Shown here piece after piece: positions 17,584 to 30,350 of a stretch of 37,190 bases of DNA. The number at the start of each line of letters is the position of its first letter. Position 1 is the stretch's first letter. The translations under genes and the position numbers were made by a program. The notes below the pieces were generated by a model. It was given only the letters and a program-made list of their open reading frames with translations. It was not told the origin of the DNA and made no database searches. Source of the DNA: Candidatus Kuenenia stuttgartensis (GTDB lineage: Bacteria; Planctomycetota; JAKEIC01; DYIT01); NCBI GenBank assembly GCA_020723505.1, contig DYIT01000002.1:68214-105403 (forward strand), read 5' to 3'.

Positions 17584-18678
17584 TCACTTCCCTTCCCCGG
17601 GCTTCTCGCCGTCTCCTGCTTTTTCCTTCGCCTTACCTTTTATGAGCCAGACGTTGCCGCGCGTCTGGCGGCCGCGGGGCAGGTCCGGGTTTTTGAATGT
17701 GTAATTCGTCCCGGCGACGATGTCCGCGATTCCGTCATTGTTCAAGTCACAGACGAATACGCGCATCCTCATGCCGATGTCCAGCGGCAGGCCTCCTGCT
17801 TCGAGGTCTACGCCCAACGCGAACTTCATGCCCTTGTCTTCCCCGACGTTCGCGAAGAACTCAATCCTGCCGTCCTCTGTTCCGACGATGAGGTCGCGGC
17901 GGCCGTCGCAATCCCAGTCGAACAATACGGGCGAGGGCCTCGCCATGGACCCCGAGGATTCGAGCGCGATGCTCAGGCCTGACTTGAAGGCCGGTTCGGT
18001 CTTCGTACCGGCGTTCAAGAACACCTGAATCGTCGCATCCGCGTATCCGACGAGCAAGTCGCCATTCCCGTCCCCGTTCCAGTCGGCAAGGCTGATTTTC
18101 ACGTAGTCGACCGCGAATGAGTGGTTCCTGCCCTCCTGTTTCGCCTCGCCTTCCCCCTCCTCGCCCGAGCCGGCGGGGGGCTCCTCGCTGTTCAAGACCT
18201 TGCCGTCGACGAGGAGCGGCTTGCCGGCAGCCAGCTCAGGCATGCCCTCGGCTCTCGTATCCAGGTAAATCCATACCCTGCCCTTGCTGTCTCCCGCCGC
18301 GAGGTCCTTCCTGCCGTCTCCGTTCATGTCCGCTACGAGCGGATGCGATCCGCAGCATCAGCAGAACGAGAGCGAAATTTCCTCGCCGCCCGCCTTGAGG
18401 AAGATGAAGCCGTCGAACTTCGGCGCCGCGTCCTCTCCGACGTTGCGGTAGAACCTGATTTTTCCGTCCTTGTACTGGCCTGCAATCAGGTCCTTCTTCC
18501 CATCGCAGTCCCAGTCCACTATCACGGGGACCAGGTCGCCGAGTTCCACGTCGATTGGGCTCCCGCCCGACTCGATTTTAACGGGTTCCGCAAGCTCCGG
18601 AGGGCCGGCCCATGCCGCCTGCCACGCGGCGGCCGAGGCCAAGACGGTTGCGCAGAGAAGCCTCAACTTGTCAGACAT
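17584..18678 (-). CDS. Exported FG-GAP/VCBS-repeat protein with in-frame UGA (candidate selenoprotein)
   Basis: The two frames 18678-18361 and 18357-17584 are continuous apart from one TGA (18358-18360). Read through, they give 364 residues: signal peptide (AAAWQAAWA), then four or five FG-GAP repeats of the type DWDCDGKKDLIAGQ, VADMNGDGRKDLAAGD, DWNGDGNGDLLVGY, DLNNDGIADIVAGT, with calcium-binding Asp/Asn loops. The UGA is residue 107 in F-C-UGA-C-C-G-S-H-P, inside the first complete repeat junction. Just after the UGA the mRNA can form UCCGCU-CGU-AGCGGA (18329-18343), with the loop about 20 nt from the UGA, as in bacterial SECIS elements. AGGAGGA precedes the ATG at 18678. The alternative is a nonsense mutation or sequencing error. 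Confidence 0.65.
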
Positions 18679-18985
18679 GCCGTCCTCCTGCAAGAGCCGC
18701 CCGGCGCCGCATTCCCGCCAGTCCGCGGACTGCGGCGGAGAGCTTGAACACGAGTATATGCATTACTTCTGAAGATGATAAGGATTCACTCGGGGAAAGC
18801 CATTACTTTGATTCTCCTGGCCGCTCCCGCCGAAGACAGCCTCAAGGCCGGCGAGAGCGGTCAGGAGAATCAGCATGGGCATGATTCTACCCGCGAGCGG
18901 GAAAAGTGCCAATTTCCGGGATTCAGGGTATAAAATCCTTCTGTCGGGCGTATGTACGGGTAGGAGACAGTGAAAGGGCCTTGTC
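18679..18985. other. Intergenic region between divergent genes
   Basis: Upstream region of the FG-GAP gene (leftward) and the sigma factor fusion (rightward). A TATAAA at 18929-18934 with GTGCCA 17 bp upstream is a weak candidate promoter for the fusion gene. No gene is seen. Confidence 0.35.
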
Positions 18986-20977
18986 ATGGCCGGGAACGGA
19001 GCAGGAAATCTCGAAGAAATGCTGGTTAGGCACCTGCAGGACATCGTGACCCTGTGCAACCGCATGTTCGAGAAACGGCACGACGCCGAGGATGCGGCGC
19101 AAAGGGCCACCCTCGAGGCGCTGCGCGCGCTGCCGTCCTATGATCCGGCGAGGCCGTTCAGGCCGTGGATTCTGAAGGTCGCGCTCAACGCGGCAAGGGA
19201 CGCCATCAGGACAAGGGTCAGGATTGCGCGAAAGGAGAAGGAAATGCCCGACGACGTGCCTGCCCCCGTAGCCAAGGGGCTTGAGGAACAGGAAAGGGAC
19301 GAAGTCGTCAGGAGAGCCATCGCCGGACTGCCGGAAGAGATTGGCCTTCCCCTGGTGCTCCACTATTTCCACAGACTCACTCAGTCCGAGATAGCCGAGA
19401 TTGCGGATTGCAGCCAGAAGACCGTGCATATGCGCATCGAACGCGGGCTCGGCATGCTTCAGCAGAAGCTTGCGCCTGCTTCGATGTACGGCGTCCCGGT
19501 GCTGGCTGTCCTGCAAAAGGGATCATTCGATGCCGTGCCACGCTCGCTCACGTCGCTGGTATCCGCTGGTCTGGCATGCGGCGGATCGGCGGCCGCCATA
19601 TCCGGAGGAGCGGTCGCCGCGGCCGCGGGAGGAACCCTGCTCAAGGCGAAGCTCCTCGCAGGAGCGCTGTTCCTGACCGCCGCTTCGTTTTCAGCCGGAG
19701 TGGCGGTGACCGGCGTTGCGACAGAGCCGGACGCCCGCAGCCCGGCTGCTTCCTCATCAGGCGTCGAAATTCCCGAGGCCAAGGGCGAACCTGCTCTGGG
19801 GGCAGCCGGGGCGGCTTTGCCGGACGGGTTCCGGGACCCTTCAGACATCCGGAATGCCGGGGAATTAAGCGGACCTGGTTCTGCTCATGCGACCGCAGCC
19901 CGCGGACTGCTTCCCGCGGGGAACCGGGCGCAAGACGGCGCTGACAGGTCCGAAACGAAAAGCCTTGACGAGAAGCTGCACGACGCAGTCCACAGGGGCG
20001 ACCTTGATGCGATATCCGCGCTCCTCGTCCAGGGTGCGGACATACATTCGGTCGTGAGAGGCGCAACGCCGCTGACCGTAGCAGTGCAGCAGAACCATGC
20101 CGCGGCGGCAGAACTCCTGCTCTCGCGGGGATCAAGACCCAACGACACCAACGATATGGGCTGGACGGTCCTCATGTCTGCCGTCAGGCTTGGTCGAGAC
20201 CGGATTGCCAAATCGCTTCTCGATCATGGCGCTGACGTGCACAGGACGATCAAGGACGGCTTCTGGAACGCGCTGGCACTCGCAATCGAAGAGGGCAACT
20301 CTGAAATGGAGCGCGAACTCAGGTCCAGAGGGGCTGCGCTGGCGCCCGGCAAGGAGGCCACGATACGCCTTTTGCATGCCGCCAAGGCGGGCGACGTCAC
20401 GCTGGCAGGCCAGTGCATTTCTTCGGGCGCGGACGTGAACGCGAAGAACTACTGGGATTACCCGATACTCACTGAGGCCGCATACGGCAAGCGCCCGGAG
20501 ATGGTCAGGTTCCTGATAGAGCGTGGAGCGGAAGTCAACCCGAAAGAAGCGGGCTATACACCTCTGTTCGCGGCTGTGTACGATTCGGAATCCGCGGCCG
20601 GAGAAGCCCTCGAACTGCGCATGGAAGTAATCCGTATCCTTCTAGATGCGGGCGCGAGCATGGATCTCCCGGGCGGATACTGGAACCACGGAAAGACCCC
20701 GCTCGAATGGGCGCTGGAGAACGGCGAGACCGGAATACTCGAGCTCTTCCTTGCGCGCGGCGCAAGCCCGGACACCGTGCTCGCCGATGACACGCTGCGC
20801 AGTCCGGCGCTCGTCTCCGCCGCAAGCCGCGGAAACCTCGCGATGGTCGAACTGCTCCTCAGGCACGGGGCCGATCCGAACGGCCGCGACTCCAACGGGT
20901 TGACGCCTCTCGCGGCGGCTGAGTCGAACGGATTCGCCCGGGTTGCCGAGGTGATTAAAAACGCCGGCGGGAAATGA
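18986..20977 (+). CDS. ECF sigma factor fused to membrane segment and ankyrin repeats
   Basis: 663 residues. Residues ~7-80 are sigma region 2 (EDAAQRATLEALRAL at the -10-binding helix, then PFRPWILKVALNAARD). Residues ~110-163 are region 4 with its HTH (LTQSEIAEIADCSQKTVHMRIERG). A disordered/Ala-Gly-rich stretch leads to a membrane span at ~220-246 (KLLAGALFLTAASFSAGVAV), then a Pro/Ser linker and about nine ankyrin repeats from ~330 to 660 (e.g. MVELLLRHGADPNGRDSNGLTPLA). The sigma part would be cytoplasmic and the ankyrins periplasmic. Large C-terminal fusions of ECF factors are known from Planctomycetota. The ankyrin domain may sense a ligand; no separate anti-sigma gene is nearby. Confidence 0.85.
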   Translation: MAGNGAGNLEEMLVRHLQDIVTLCNRMFEKRHDAEDAAQRATLEALRALPSYDPARPFRPWILKVALNAARDAIRTRVRIARKEKEMPDDVPAPVAKGLEEQERDEVVRRAIAGLPEEIGLPLVLHYFHRLTQSEIAEIADCSQKTVHMRIERGLGMLQQKLAPASMYGVPVLAVLQKGSFDAVPRSLTSLVSAGLACGGSAAAISGGAVAAAAGGTLLKAKLLAGALFLTAASFSAGVAVTGVATEPDARSPAASSSGVEIPEAKGEPALGAAGAALPDGFRDPSDIRNAGELSGPGSAHATAARGLLPAGNRAQDGADRSETKSLDEKLHDAVHRGDLDAISALLVQGADIHSVVRGATPLTVAVQQNHAAAAELLLSRGSRPNDTNDMGWTVLMSAVRLGRDRIAKSLLDHGADVHRTIKDGFWNALALAIEEGNSEMERELRSRGAALAPGKEATIRLLHAAKAGDVTLAGQCISSGADVNAKNYWDYPILTEAAYGKRPEMVRFLIERGAEVNPKEAGYTPLFAAVYDSESAAGEALELRMEVIRILLDAGASMDLPGGYWNHGKTPLEWALENGETGILELFLARGASPDTVLADDTLRSPALVSAASRGNLAMVELLLRHGADPNGRDSNGLTPLAAAESNGFARVAEVIKNAGGK

Positions 20978-26482: not shown

Positions 26483-27667
26483 ATGACCATGCGAATTCTG
26501 GCTGCGGCCGCATTGCTGGCCGCCGGGCTTGCGGTCGTCGCGGCCCAGCCGGCTCGCGCGGCGGACGCCTGAGGCAACGACCCCGGTTGCGTGACAACGC
26601 CCGCCGGCAGCGGCGGCGGAGGATACGCGGCTGGAACCGGCACGTTGTCGGAATCGTCCACTGGATCCATGTTCAGCGTCGGTATCGGGTGGACTTTCAC
26701 GGAAACCGAAACCGCCAGATACCACACCATCCCTGTCAGCGTGCAGGTCAGGCCGCTCGACTGGGCTATCTTCTCAATCCAGGTCCCCTTCACTTCGGTG
26801 TCCGGCAAGGAGACCTACTACGACCAAATCCTCGTAGGCGGCATACCGACCCTCAGGGAGACCGTGCTCTCTTATTCGAACGGCGGAATCGGCGACCTGG
26901 CGATATCCGCCTGGGCGGACTGCGCCCGTCTCCTTGGCCTTGTCCTGGGCGGCGGAGCGGGGAAAGCGGGCGAGACGAAAGCCGGTCCCCCCGGGAGCGC
27001 GGCGGGCGGAGGGGGCGCAGCGTCAGCGGGCTCGGCTGATCCTTTCGCCGGCGTCGGCCGGCCGATGCTCCTCATCGGGGCGGGAATCAAGCTTCCGACC
27101 GGGGAGCACGACGCAAGGGACGCGGATAAGTACGCGTTCGACAGGTCGAAGTCGCTCACAGGCGAATACAGCGAATCCGACGGAATCCTGCCGGTAGGAT
27201 ACGAACTGGGGTCCGGAACGACCGACTTCCAGTTCGGCGCGGCCTACCAGCAGCGTTTCTGGAGATTCGTGCTTTCGGGGGGGATCGCCTGTCAACTCTC
27301 GGGGGGCTCGAACAGCGTGGGGTACGAGCGGTCCGACATTGCGTCGCTCTCCATTGCCGTCAAATTCGTGCCGTTCTCTTCCGCGGGGGAGCTCGAGGCG
27401 TCGGTTCGCGCGGGCCTGAGCGGCATCATAGCGCTCGCCAGGGACATCGACCACTCGGAGAACACCGCTCTTCTGGGCAGGCAGGAACGGGGGCCTTTGA
27501 GCGGGTCAGGCAGGGATTACGCTTTCGCGGATATCGGAGCAGGCGTCGATTTCCTCGGCAACTTCAGTTTCGGGCTGGGGGCGAGGTTCCAGCTGAACGA
27601 GACCTCGGGCTCCTCGGCGAGCGCGTTCAAATACCAGTTCATCTGCACAATCGGCGCGCGCTTCTGA
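26483..27667 (+). CDS. Outer-membrane barrel-type protein with in-frame UGA after the signal peptide (candidate selenoprotein)
   Basis: An ATG at 26483 (or 26489) opens a classic signal peptide (MTMRILAAAALLAAGLAVV, cut near ARA-ADA). One codon later comes TGA (26570-26572), after which the frame runs on to 27665. Read through it gives 394 residues with UGA as residue 30, in A-D-A-UGA-G-N-D-P-G-C. The rest alternates hydrophobic strands and ends in an aromatic C-terminal strand (FICTIGARF), the signature of outer-membrane beta-barrels of the transporter/porin kind. Without readthrough the barrel would lack an export signal. A weak GUUG-CGUGA-CAAC hairpin lies ~17 nt past the UGA. It sits 78 bp past the rhodanese gene. 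Confidence 0.6.
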
Positions 27668-27817
27668 TTAAGGCTGTTCGCGAAGGACCTCGAACCACGG
27701 GTCGTCCGGGCGTGAACTGCCTGGAACTGGAGTTCAGAAGAACGGTTGATCCCGCTGGAGAATCAAGACCGGGTATTTTACTTAGGAGTGCATAATCAAG
27801 GTTTGAAAGGACCGGCA

Positions 27818-28957
27818 ATGGCGAACGACCATGCAGGACCGGGACGGCGATGGGACGTGCCGTACATTGTGAGCTCCGCTGCGATAGCCGCCATCGGCGT
27901 GCTCCTGATGAAGGGGGTCATGGAGAAGCTGTTCGGCATGACGGGCAATCCGCCGAACATGGGGCTTTGCATGAACTGCTTCCTTAGGGACATCGCCGGA
28001 TCAATCGGTCTCCACAAGGCCGACGTGGCATGGTATTTCAGGCCGGAAATCCCGGGTCTCGTCCTGGGGGCCTACCTCGCGTCGCTGCTCTTCCGGGAGC
28101 ACAGGCCGCAGGGCGGGCAGAACGGGCTGATTCGGTTCACGTTCGGCGCGTTCATGGGCGCAGGAGCCATGATGTTCCTCGGATGCACGACGAGGATGGG
28201 GCTTCGGCTCGGCGGGGGTGATTTCAACGCGCTGGTCGGATTCGCGGGGTTCGCGGCGGGGATCTACGCTGGCACGATATTCATCAGGAACGGCTTCTCG
28301 GCAGGCGACAAGAAGGATCTGCCGGTGGTGAACGGGGTTATCTTCCCGTTCGTTGCCGCGCTGTTCCTTGCCCTGTTCATCATCTTCGGGCCGGAGATTT
28401 TCAAGTATTCCGAGAAGGGCCCGGCTTCGATGCGCGCTCCGATTGCTGTCGCGATTGGCGCCGGAGTGCTCGCGGGCGGATTGGCCCACTGGGGGCGTTT
28501 CTGCTTCATGCGGCCGTTCCGGGATCTCTTCCTCATGAAGAGCGGGCGGCTGTTCGGAGGCCTGCTGGTGTTCATCCTTGTCGCGACGGCGCTCAACCTG
28601 GCGTTCGGCGAGTACCGGCCCGGCTTTTCGAACCAGGAGGACCGCATGGCGCACGCCAAGGTCCTCTGCAACCTGCTCGGGATGTTCACAGTAGGGCTCG
28701 CGGCCGTGTTCCTGGACGGCTGCCCCATACGGCAGGTCGTAAGGGCGGGCGCGGGCGACACGGACGCGGCAGTGACGGTCATGGGCATGATGGCGGCGCT
28801 GTCCATTTCCGACAACTTCGGCATCACATGCTCGCCCAAGGCCCAGCCGTTCTCGGCGGGCGTGGCCGTGAGCATAGGAATAGCGTGCATGATTACGCTC
28901 GCATTCTTCCATACGGACCTTTTCTGGAAATTGAAGGGCAAAGCGAAGAAGATATGA
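27818..28957 (+). CDS. yedE: YedE-family selenium transporter
   Basis: 379 residues from the ATG at 27818 with GAAAGGA upstream. Multi-spanning inner-membrane protein of the YeeE/YedE group. It carries the hallmarks of the selenium branch rather than the thiosulfate one: GNPPNMGLCMNCFLRDIAGS, then GLHKADVAWYFRPEIPGLVLG, GAMMFLGCTTRMGLRLGGGD and a C-terminal LDGCPIRQVVRAG. The conserved cysteines form the path thought to carry the chalcogen. YedE genes are a recognised genomic marker of selenium use. It stands between two genes with in-frame UGA codons. Confidence 0.9.
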   Translation: MANDHAGPGRRWDVPYIVSSAAIAAIGVLLMKGVMEKLFGMTGNPPNMGLCMNCFLRDIAGSIGLHKADVAWYFRPEIPGLVLGAYLASLLFREHRPQGGQNGLIRFTFGAFMGAGAMMFLGCTTRMGLRLGGGDFNALVGFAGFAAGIYAGTIFIRNGFSAGDKKDLPVVNGVIFPFVAALFLALFIIFGPEIFKYSEKGPASMRAPIAVAIGAGVLAGGLAHWGRFCFMRPFRDLFLMKSGRLFGGLLVFILVATALNLAFGEYRPGFSNQEDRMAHAKVLCNLLGMFTVGLAAVFLDGCPIRQVVRAGAGDTDAAVTVMGMMAALSISDNFGITCSPKAQPFSAGVAVSIGIACMITLAFFHTDLFWKLKGKAKKI

Positions 28958-29033
28958 GGGAAGGGCGAAGCCCCTGCCGGGCCGGCGGGGGATGCGAGGT
29001 AATGGCAAGATACACTTCATAAGGAATGAGACC

Positions 29034-30350
29034 ATGTCGAAGGAACACGAATCCCTGATGAAGGATTTGGGCGTCAACGTCGAGCTTCACGACAAGCTAA
29101 TCGCCCACGCGGACCGTCTGCATGACTCGACCTGCGGCAGGCAGAAGAACCGGCCGCGGGAGATGGCGCGCTTCGACGCGGCCGTAAGGGCGAGCCACGG
29201 CGGCAGGGTGAAGGAGATATACGAATATCGCAAGGCAGGGGGCAAGTCCATAGGGACGTTCTGCATCTACGTCCCGGACGAGATTGCGCTGGCGGCGAAA
29301 GTACTTCCCATTCCGCTCTGCGGGGGCTCGGGCTGGCCGGTGGACTACGCCGACAAGATGTTCCCGCGCGACATCTGCCCTCTGGTGAGGTCGACATTCG
29401 GCATGTCGTTCAGCGGGACGTGACCCTACAAGAAGCTCAAGGATTTCGCCGTTGGCGAAACCACATGCGACGCGAAGAAGAAGGCGTGGGACCTCCTTGG
29501 ATTCAAGGTCATGGAAGTGCCGCAGAAGAAAAACCAGGTCGACGCGGATTTGTGGCGGGGGGAGATCGCCGCGTTCCGGGATGCGGTCGAAGGCCTGTCG
29601 GGGGCAAAGGTGACGAAGGAACGTCTTGCGGACTCAATCAGGCTCGTGAACCGGAAAAGGAGGGCGCTCGGGGCGGTGAATGCGTTCCGCAGGCTCGAGG
29701 AGCCGCCGATAAGCGGGCTGGATGCGCTGCTCGTCTCGCAGGCGGCGCTCAACATGGACGTGAAGGCGTTCTGCGAGGCAGCGGAGGCCCTGGCCGGCGA
29801 GCTCGAGGACAGGGCGAGGCGCGGGATTTCGGCCTACGAGGCGCCCGGGCCGAGGGTGATGATTGCAGGCACGCCTTCGCCGATGGGGAACGCCAAAGTC
29901 CATTACGTTGTCGAATCGTCGGGCATGCGGATTGTGGCGGACGAGTCGTGCACGGGCGTGAGATATTACCGGGACCTCGTGGACGAGTCGCCTTCCGACC
30001 TTGGCGGGATGGTTCGCGCCGTTGCGGACAGGTATTTCAAAATCGACTGCGCATGCTTCTCGCCGAACAAGGAGCGCTTCGACAACGCCGCGGCGCTGGC
30101 GAAGGAGTACCGCGTGCAGGGGGTGGTGCACAACATCCTCCAGTTCTGCCACGGCTTCAACGTGGAATCCAAGGCGCTGGAGAACGCGTTGGCGGCGTCC
30201 GGGATTCCTTCGCTCAAGATTGTGACGGACTATTCCGAGGAGGACATCGAACAGCTCAAAGTGAGGGCGGAGACCTTCTGCGAGCTCCTGAAGGCAGGGC
30301 GGCAGGCGGCGGGCGCGGCTCCGCAGGCCGCGCAAGGGAAGGCCGGCTGA
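29034..30350 (+). CDS. Double-cubane-cluster / 2-hydroxyacyl-CoA dehydratase-family protein with in-frame UGA (candidate selenoprotein)
   Basis: The frame from ATG 29034 (AAGGAA upstream) to 30350 has one TGA (29421-29423); read through it is 438 residues, normal for the family. N-terminal half: FCIYVPDEIALAAKVLPIPL, then C115 in DICPLVRS, residue 130 = UGA in MSFSGT-UGA-PYKKLKDF, and C145 in GETTCDAKKK. Relatives with a double-cubane [8Fe-9S] cluster have Cys where the UGA is. C-terminal half has the activity-domain motifs (ADESCTGVRYYRDLV, CACFSPNKERF, ILQFCHGFNVE). A strong hairpin UUUCGCC-GUU-GGCGAAA (29444-29460) has its loop 27 nt past the UGA. These enzymes carry out low-potential two-electron reductions. 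It follows the selenium transporter by 76 bp. Confidence 0.8.
29444..29460 (+). promoter_or_regulatory. Candidate bacterial SECIS hairpin
   Basis: Perfect 7-bp stem TTTCGCC/GGCGAAA with a GTT loop, 27 nt from the in-frame TGA at 29421-29423. As I recall the bacterial SECIS consensus, it asks for a 3-14-nt loop with G among its first two bases, 16-37 nt after UGA; this hairpin satisfies it. It lies inside the coding region, as bacterial SECIS elements do. Confidence 0.6.

Follow-up and report, generated by a model that had tools for sequence, protein, structure and literature searches.

The Gene and Its Neighbours in the Window

The window, meaning the whole 37,190-nt stretch of DNA that was analysed, belongs to a 4.95 Mb genome bin of 207 contigs with an estimated contamination of 4.4%. 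On its minus strand lies a gene for a protein built of FG-GAP repeats, and the frame of this gene contains a single TGA at codon 107 (Table 1). The plus-strand frame over the same positions was rejected as a gene. The initial annotation held that the two halves are one frame and one repeat protein divided by one TGA, and this is upheld, as follows. Pfam matches the protein with PF13517 (E = 5.5e-20) and PF01839 (E = 5.6e-13), both above gathering, and FG-GAP repeats are found on both sides of the TGA. Besides TGA107, the gene has no in-frame TAA or TAG and no further stop or frameshift. The local context of the codon is SLSFC-U-CCGSHPLVADMNGDG; that is, Cys residues flank the UGA (F-C-U-C-C-G), just as had been annotated.

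Two more UGA genes lie on the plus strand. The earlier count of three such genes in 13 kb is right, but the statement that all of them have Cys contexts is inexact, since the other two UGAs have no adjacent Cys. Both of these genes look real. The UGA of the 2-hydroxyglutaryl-CoA dehydratase D-like gene, in the context SGT-U-PYKK, is aligned with Cys in the own-genome paralogue L175, in L166 and in L168; three others have Asn at this site. About 27 nt downstream of the UGA lies a 7-bp hairpin with the loop GUU. No such protein appears in Table 1 of a 2026 review of prokaryotic selenoproteins (PMC13188914). The exported beta-barrel-like ORF has no Pfam match. Its one homologue, L192 of genome G011, is 37% identical and reads AADQ-U-GPGG at the same place, and the ORF is possibly a third selenoprotein of the window. 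A YeeE/YedE-type Sulf_transp protein (PF04143) is encoded between the two, and the three genes possibly form one sulfur/selenium-related cluster. Elsewhere on the plus strand is a gene for a 663-residue protein in which ECF-type sigma regions are fused to ankyrin repeats (PF04542, PF08281, PF12796).

Table 1. Features of the FG-GAP gene and of other genes in the window.
Feature	Position	Strand	Remarks
Putative selenoprotein gene, whole	17584..18678	-	364 residues with TGA107 read as Sec; final stop TGA 17586-17584
Start ATG	18678	-	Read from sequence
Shine-Dalgarno AGGAGG	18684-18689	-	Read from sequence
Probable signal peptide, residues 1-24, MSDKLRLLCATVLASAAAWQAAWA	18607..18678	-	Read from sequence, no signal-peptide predictor
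Predicted Sec codon TGA, residue 107	18358..18360	-	Homologue comparison
Cys108, partner in vicinal Sec-Cys pair	18355..18357	-	Cys in 80/80 UC rows
FG-GAP blade 1 DxDxDG loop, DWDCDGKKDL	18487..18516	-	
FG-GAP blade 2 DxDxDG loop, DMNGDGRKDL	18301..18330	-	Directly after the Sec-Cys loop
FG-GAP blade 3 DxDxDG loop, DWNGDGNGDL	18055..18084	-	
FG-GAP blade 4 DxDxDG loop, DWDCDGRRDL	17890..17919	-	
FG-GAP blade 5 DxDxDG loop, DLNNDGIADI	17719..17748	-	
Putative SECIS hairpin TCCGCT-CGT-AGCGGA, 6-bp stem	18329..18343	-	Starts 14 nt downstream of UGA, loop 20 nt after UGA
Competing hairpin GCGGAT-CGC-ATCCGC	18339..18353	-	In sequence, not conserved in family
Gene for ECF-type sigma/ankyrin protein	18986-20977	+	
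Exported beta-barrel-like ORF	26483-27667	+	TGA 26570-26572, right after signal peptide (AADA-U-GNDPGC)
YeeE/YedE-type Sulf_transp gene	27746-28957	+	
2-Hydroxyglutaryl-CoA dehydratase D-like gene (PF06050)	28992-30350	+	TGA 29421-29423; SGT-U-PYKKLKDFAVGETTCD

The UGA Column, the Downstream Hairpin and the Sec Machinery

A paralogue in the same genome (L008, contig C181), 55% identical to the window protein, has its sole TGA at the identical column, where it reads GUCIG against CUCCG. A scan of the genome contigs and 99 relatives found tens of homologues in which a single TGA occurs, again at that column, and 62 extracted homologues have a TGA there. Of the 392 genomes sampled from the phylum, 89 have the UGA-type gene, and the UGA-bearing records come from Planctomycetota, Phycisphaerae, Sumerlaeota, WOR-3/Stahlbacteria, Fermentibacteria/Sabulitectum/Aegiribacteria, Armatimonadota, Fibrobacterota/Chitinivibrionales and Nitrospirae. 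The queries of the homologue searches held C at the Sec site, so Cys homologues, which would score at least as well as Sec versions, were not disfavoured. In a 135-row alignment of the propeller domain, the site reads UC in 80 rows, GC in 25, CC in 11, GU in 6 and CU in 1, with a few others. Cys follows Sec in every UC row, and the flanks are conserved on both sides of the site. The motif had been described as C-x-C-C; this must be given up, because only U107 and C108 are family-wide, and the motif is a vicinal Sec-Cys pair.

The pair itself varies among relatives. In the Nitrospirae homologues L020, L024, L030, L035, L037 and L050, it is the second residue of the pair that is Sec (G-U-x-G), and L019 has C-U. 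Sec can therefore occupy either position. A large clade has Gly-Cys at the site (L023, L027, L029, L031, L032, L034, L036, L039 and others), and its members mostly lack the SECIS hairpin. This suggests that, in the Gly-Cys clade, the first position was lost or given a different role. With Gly at the first position there, not every relative requires the Sec/Cys pair.

Replacement of Sec by Cys is seen in several groups. Six homologues from the same phylum (L152-L157, family f25) read YCCVG[AG]QPRFVDL, and no tRNA-Sec match was found in their six genomes, several of which are single-contig or closed. L151, in genome G187, is a Cys version (GCCIG) although its genome has tRNA-Sec, and four Bacteroidota rows read CC in the final alignment. 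On a quick maximum-likelihood tree made with the site masked, exchange between UC and CC needs three changes, in the f25 clade, in G187 and in the Bacteroidota.

The hairpin after the UGA had been annotated as a 6-bp stem with the loop CGU at a SECIS-like distance. It is present as described, and it fits the published limits of bacterial SECIS elements as given in PMC13188914. Folding of the window hairpin alone is unremarkable (z = -1.17, with equally good folding in 30 of 200 shuffles), and the case for it is made from covariation in the family only, the window z-score being left out. In the 52 UC sequences compared, 85.3% of stem cells are paired, as against 20-41% when the register is slid by 1-3 columns. 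Stem cells in which both bases have changed number 37, compared with 12.7 ± 3.2 in shuffled alignments, and none of 500 shuffles matched either the observed count of double changes or the covariation score. The third base of a Pro codon covaries with the second base of the next codon, for Val or Ala (p = 7e-8): CCA occurs with a T-centred codon (GTG) 41 times and CCG with T twice, whereas CCA never occurs with GCG and CCG does so 8 times. Judged from the codons, this is a synonymous change compensating a non-synonymous one. In this register, each of the 51 countable UC members has 5-6 of the 6 stem positions paired; most homologues without Sec have 1-4, that is, the pairing is mostly lost. The overlapping second hairpin that had been pointed out does exist, but the family does not keep it as a competing structure. 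In the Nitrospirae GU members, the hairpin is in a different register. A simple scan found G at the third loop position in L012, L013 and L099. Since the same column recurs in the paralogue and in tens of homologues, and since the hairpin covaries, the TGA is beyond chance.

The genome of the window has the genes needed for Sec insertion: tRNA-Sec (71.3 bits, anticodon TCA), SelB (350.7 bits), SelA (544.5 bits) and SelD (347.5 bits), the last with a UGA of its own in CAGUAGKMAP. These lie on contigs of the bin other than the window contig, a caveat that is lessened by closed genomes carrying UGA copies: G367, a single contig, has two along with tRNA-Sec, and G386, also a single contig, has several. 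Two SelB-like proteins of the window's bin score above the cut-off (contigs C89 and C55); L004 is full length, and L005 adjoins selD. The presence of two may reflect duplication or contamination. Over the 392 genomes, tRNA-Sec is present in 80 of the 89 with a UGA-type gene and in 147 of the 303 others (Fisher p = 2e-13). The nine UGA genomes in which it was not found are mostly drafts, but one of them, G030, is estimated to be 92% complete.

The proposal of a selenoprotein made in the initial annotation is thus supported by the UGA column, the Cys homologues, the SECIS covariation and the full Sec machinery of the genome. What had been named as able to refute it is absent, for homologues do carry Cys at the site and neither frameshifts nor signs of decay are seen. 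We infer that UGA107 almost certainly inserts Sec. This inference is drawn from sequence comparison, without protein-level or reporter evidence.

A Propeller with a Probable Vicinal Sec-Cys Pair and Its Proposed Redox Context

An AlphaFold2 model of the window protein, made with 31 homologues, has a pLDDT of 88.2 and a pTM of 0.86. Foldseek matches it to integrin alpha, the BBSome, KICSTOR ITFG2, CRTAC1 and secreted esterases, with TM-scores of 0.35-0.44 and E-values down to 3e-8. TM-scores in this range are consistent with fewer blades than the matched propellers have, and the mature protein is apparently a small, five-bladed FG-GAP beta-propeller. It would share fold, DxDxDG loops and secretion with FG-GAP/VCBS-repeat proteins (PF13517, PF01839), bacterial integrin-alpha-like propellers among them, and differ from integrins, which have seven blades. 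A vicinal Sec-Cys pair in the entry loop of blade 2 is mentioned in none of the descriptions of these proteins. Calcium binding by the window protein is only predicted, from DxDxDG motifs that are conserved in the alignment, with no metal data.

Judged by sequence, U107-C108 belongs to the loop that immediately precedes blade 2's first strand, on the opposite side from the DxDxDG loop. This position was taken from the secondary-structure string and FG-GAP topology and not from model coordinates. In propellers, the face around the mouth of the channel is the usual location of active sites, and from this we infer that the pair is at that face. Secretion is likewise inferred; export is supported by the T9SS sorting domains at the ends of some WOR-3 and Fermentibacteria members (L018, L041).

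Sequence context links the propeller to carriers of reducing power at a minority of loci, seven in number. A C-terminal DsbD_N domain is in the same ORF in L094 and L105, Sec versions from relatives in the phylum, and in L073, a Cys version from Butyricimonas that is also flanked on both sides by AhpC-TSA/thioredoxin-like genes. In the Bacteroidota loci L088, L071 and L089, DsbD_N is in the next gene, and AhpC-TSA/thioredoxin-like (TlpA-type) domains are encoded in the following gene of L088 and in the same gene of L089. The seventh, L111 (G007, contig C38), is an 850-residue ORF in which a redoxin/TlpA domain with WUGPC (U302) precedes a UC propeller (U510); with its two UGAs, it is a candidate double selenoprotein. 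L178 has only a DsbD_N motif (YQACDEQRC) that Pfam does not match. No DsbD_N or thioredoxin-type partner was found beside the window gene or beside its paralogue L008, and a search for recurrent neighbours over 59 loci gave mostly lineage-specific synteny. The propeller is not itself homologous to the DsbD N-terminal domain or the TlpA redoxins (PF11412, PF08534, PF00578), yet these domains are fused to or adjoin several propeller members, which suggests a shared electron pathway.

Since seven loci link the propeller to DsbD_N or thioredoxin-like domains, an extracytoplasmic oxidoreductase is the best reading. That is, we propose a secreted propeller selenoprotein in which a vicinal Sec-Cys pair is the redox site, and we put the probability of this at roughly 0.8. 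The steps would be as follows. SelB, directed by the hairpin just downstream, would deliver Sec-tRNA to UGA107 to give the 364-residue protein, which would be exported to the periplasm or the surface and whose mature part would fold as a propeller. The U107-C108 pair would cycle between a selenolate/thiol and a selenenylsulfide. Its electrons would come from an extracytoplasmic partner of the DsbD_N or thioredoxin-like (TlpA/redoxin) type and would then pass to an oxidised substrate of unknown identity. The selenenylsulfide chemistry, the direction of electron flow and the substrate are inferences. A redox role in which the pair exchanges electrons with DsbD_N/TlpA-type carriers appears probable. 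It is tempting to go further and see in the family an ancient, widespread and uncatalogued secreted Sec-Cys propeller that is the terminal acceptor or donor of a DsbD/TlpA extracytoplasmic reducing pathway, and we regard this as somewhat better than an even bet.

A parallel is offered by mammalian TrxR, whose C-terminal Gly-Cys-Sec-Gly forms a selenenylsulfide. Adjacent Cys and Sec residues flanked by Gly recur in many propeller members as G-U-C-x-G. The order in the propellers is reversed (Sec-Cys), the fold is unrelated and the site is not C-terminal, so that the likeness is one of analogy only.

The main rival to a redox role is that the protein is a genuine Sec protein in which the pair acts as a binding site on the propeller surface, for a soft metal or metalloid (Hg, As, Cu or Se species) or for a ligand, or has a part in adhesion or structure. 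Vicinal thiols do bind soft metals, and FG-GAP propellers mostly serve for binding or adhesion; the sequence and fold matches in the PDB are integrins, BBS and KICSTOR subunits and secreted esterases, not oxidoreductases. Against this are the DsbD_N and thioredoxin-like fusions and neighbours, which occur in two distant groups and include one fusion with a WUGPC active site. In addition, Sec is usually catalytic wherever its role is known (PMC13188914). We consider a non-redox pair unlikely, though it cannot be dismissed.

Explanations without Sec, Novelty and Implications

Explanations that do without Sec fare far worse. An in-frame UGA could be reassigned to Trp or Gly, or be read at random by a suppressor tRNA, and within one gene a frame open under TGA=W or TGA=G looks alike. 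Yet UGA also serves as the normal stop of the window gene, as it does in 25 of the 62 extracted members, the residue that replaces Sec in the column is C, in other clades G, and never W, the SECIS is conserved and a complete sel system is present. Code reassignment is very improbable and was rejected on this comparative evidence.

The UGA might instead be a true, regulated stop, giving a short protein of 1.5 blades and a separately translated C-terminal piece. Some truncated product is to be expected, since release factor 2 competes for Sec UGA codons in bacteria. However, about 1.5 blades are too few to close an FG-GAP propeller, conservation of the protein sequence continues past the stop, and genomes without tRNA-Sec have Cys in its place; the comparative evidence led to the rejection of a regulated stop, which has next to nothing left in its favour. 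Finally, a lone TGA in a draft bin with the contamination given above could be an assembly error, or the gene could be decaying into fragments, but the same column is found in the 55%-identical paralogue and in about 100 genes from independently assembled genomes, the frame has no other interruption and the flanks are conserved on both sides, so that decay or error, rejected on the conserved UGA column, is scarcely credible.

With Sec insertion as the preferred reading, it remains to place the protein among known selenoproteins. The 2026 review catalogues 119 prokaryotic selenoprotein families and subfamilies, most of the characterised ones with a thioredoxin-like fold (PMC13188914). Its Table 1 has no FG-GAP, VCBS or propeller family, and the word "propeller" is absent from it. 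Deep-Sep (PMC12013277) adds no FG-GAP or propeller selenoprotein family. NCBIfam has no model that matches the selenoprotein domain above cut-off, only sorting tails in some relatives. Searches of the literature for a selenoprotein with FG-GAP or VCBS repeats returned only unrelated papers, with supplementary tables and most subscription papers outside their scope. "Undescribed" here means absent from the searchable literature and catalogues only, and an earlier unnamed listing, for example among the planctomycete candidates in the supplement of PMC4807772, cannot be excluded.

The family shares with the catalogued bacterial selenoproteins the UGA with a downstream SECIS, SelA/SelB/SelD/tRNA-Sec and the existence of Cys homologues (PMC13188914). 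Vicinal Cys and Sec are also found in CU/UC-motif selenoproteins such as HgcA, SaoL, SaoC and KCU-star (Table 1 of the same review); the folds and families of these differ from the propeller, and their order is mostly C-U. By every sequence criterion tested, the propeller protein is a selenoprotein, and it is a new family on an unusual fold.

Standard annotation pipelines would end these genes at the UGA. Since the family occurs in roughly one quarter of the genomes sampled from the phylum, counts of selenoproteins in Planctomycetota and in several candidate phyla are probably too low. The role of Sec is directly testable, given the closed multi-copy genomes G386 and G367 and the natural Cys-Cys versions in genomes without tRNA-Sec. 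With this family, Sec is assigned to a beta-propeller, which is not among the folds of the 2026 catalogue, and is connected with extracytoplasmic DsbD_N and thioredoxin-like domains. If the proposal is true, cells would employ selenium in extracytoplasmic redox reactions, on a fold from which no Sec is known.
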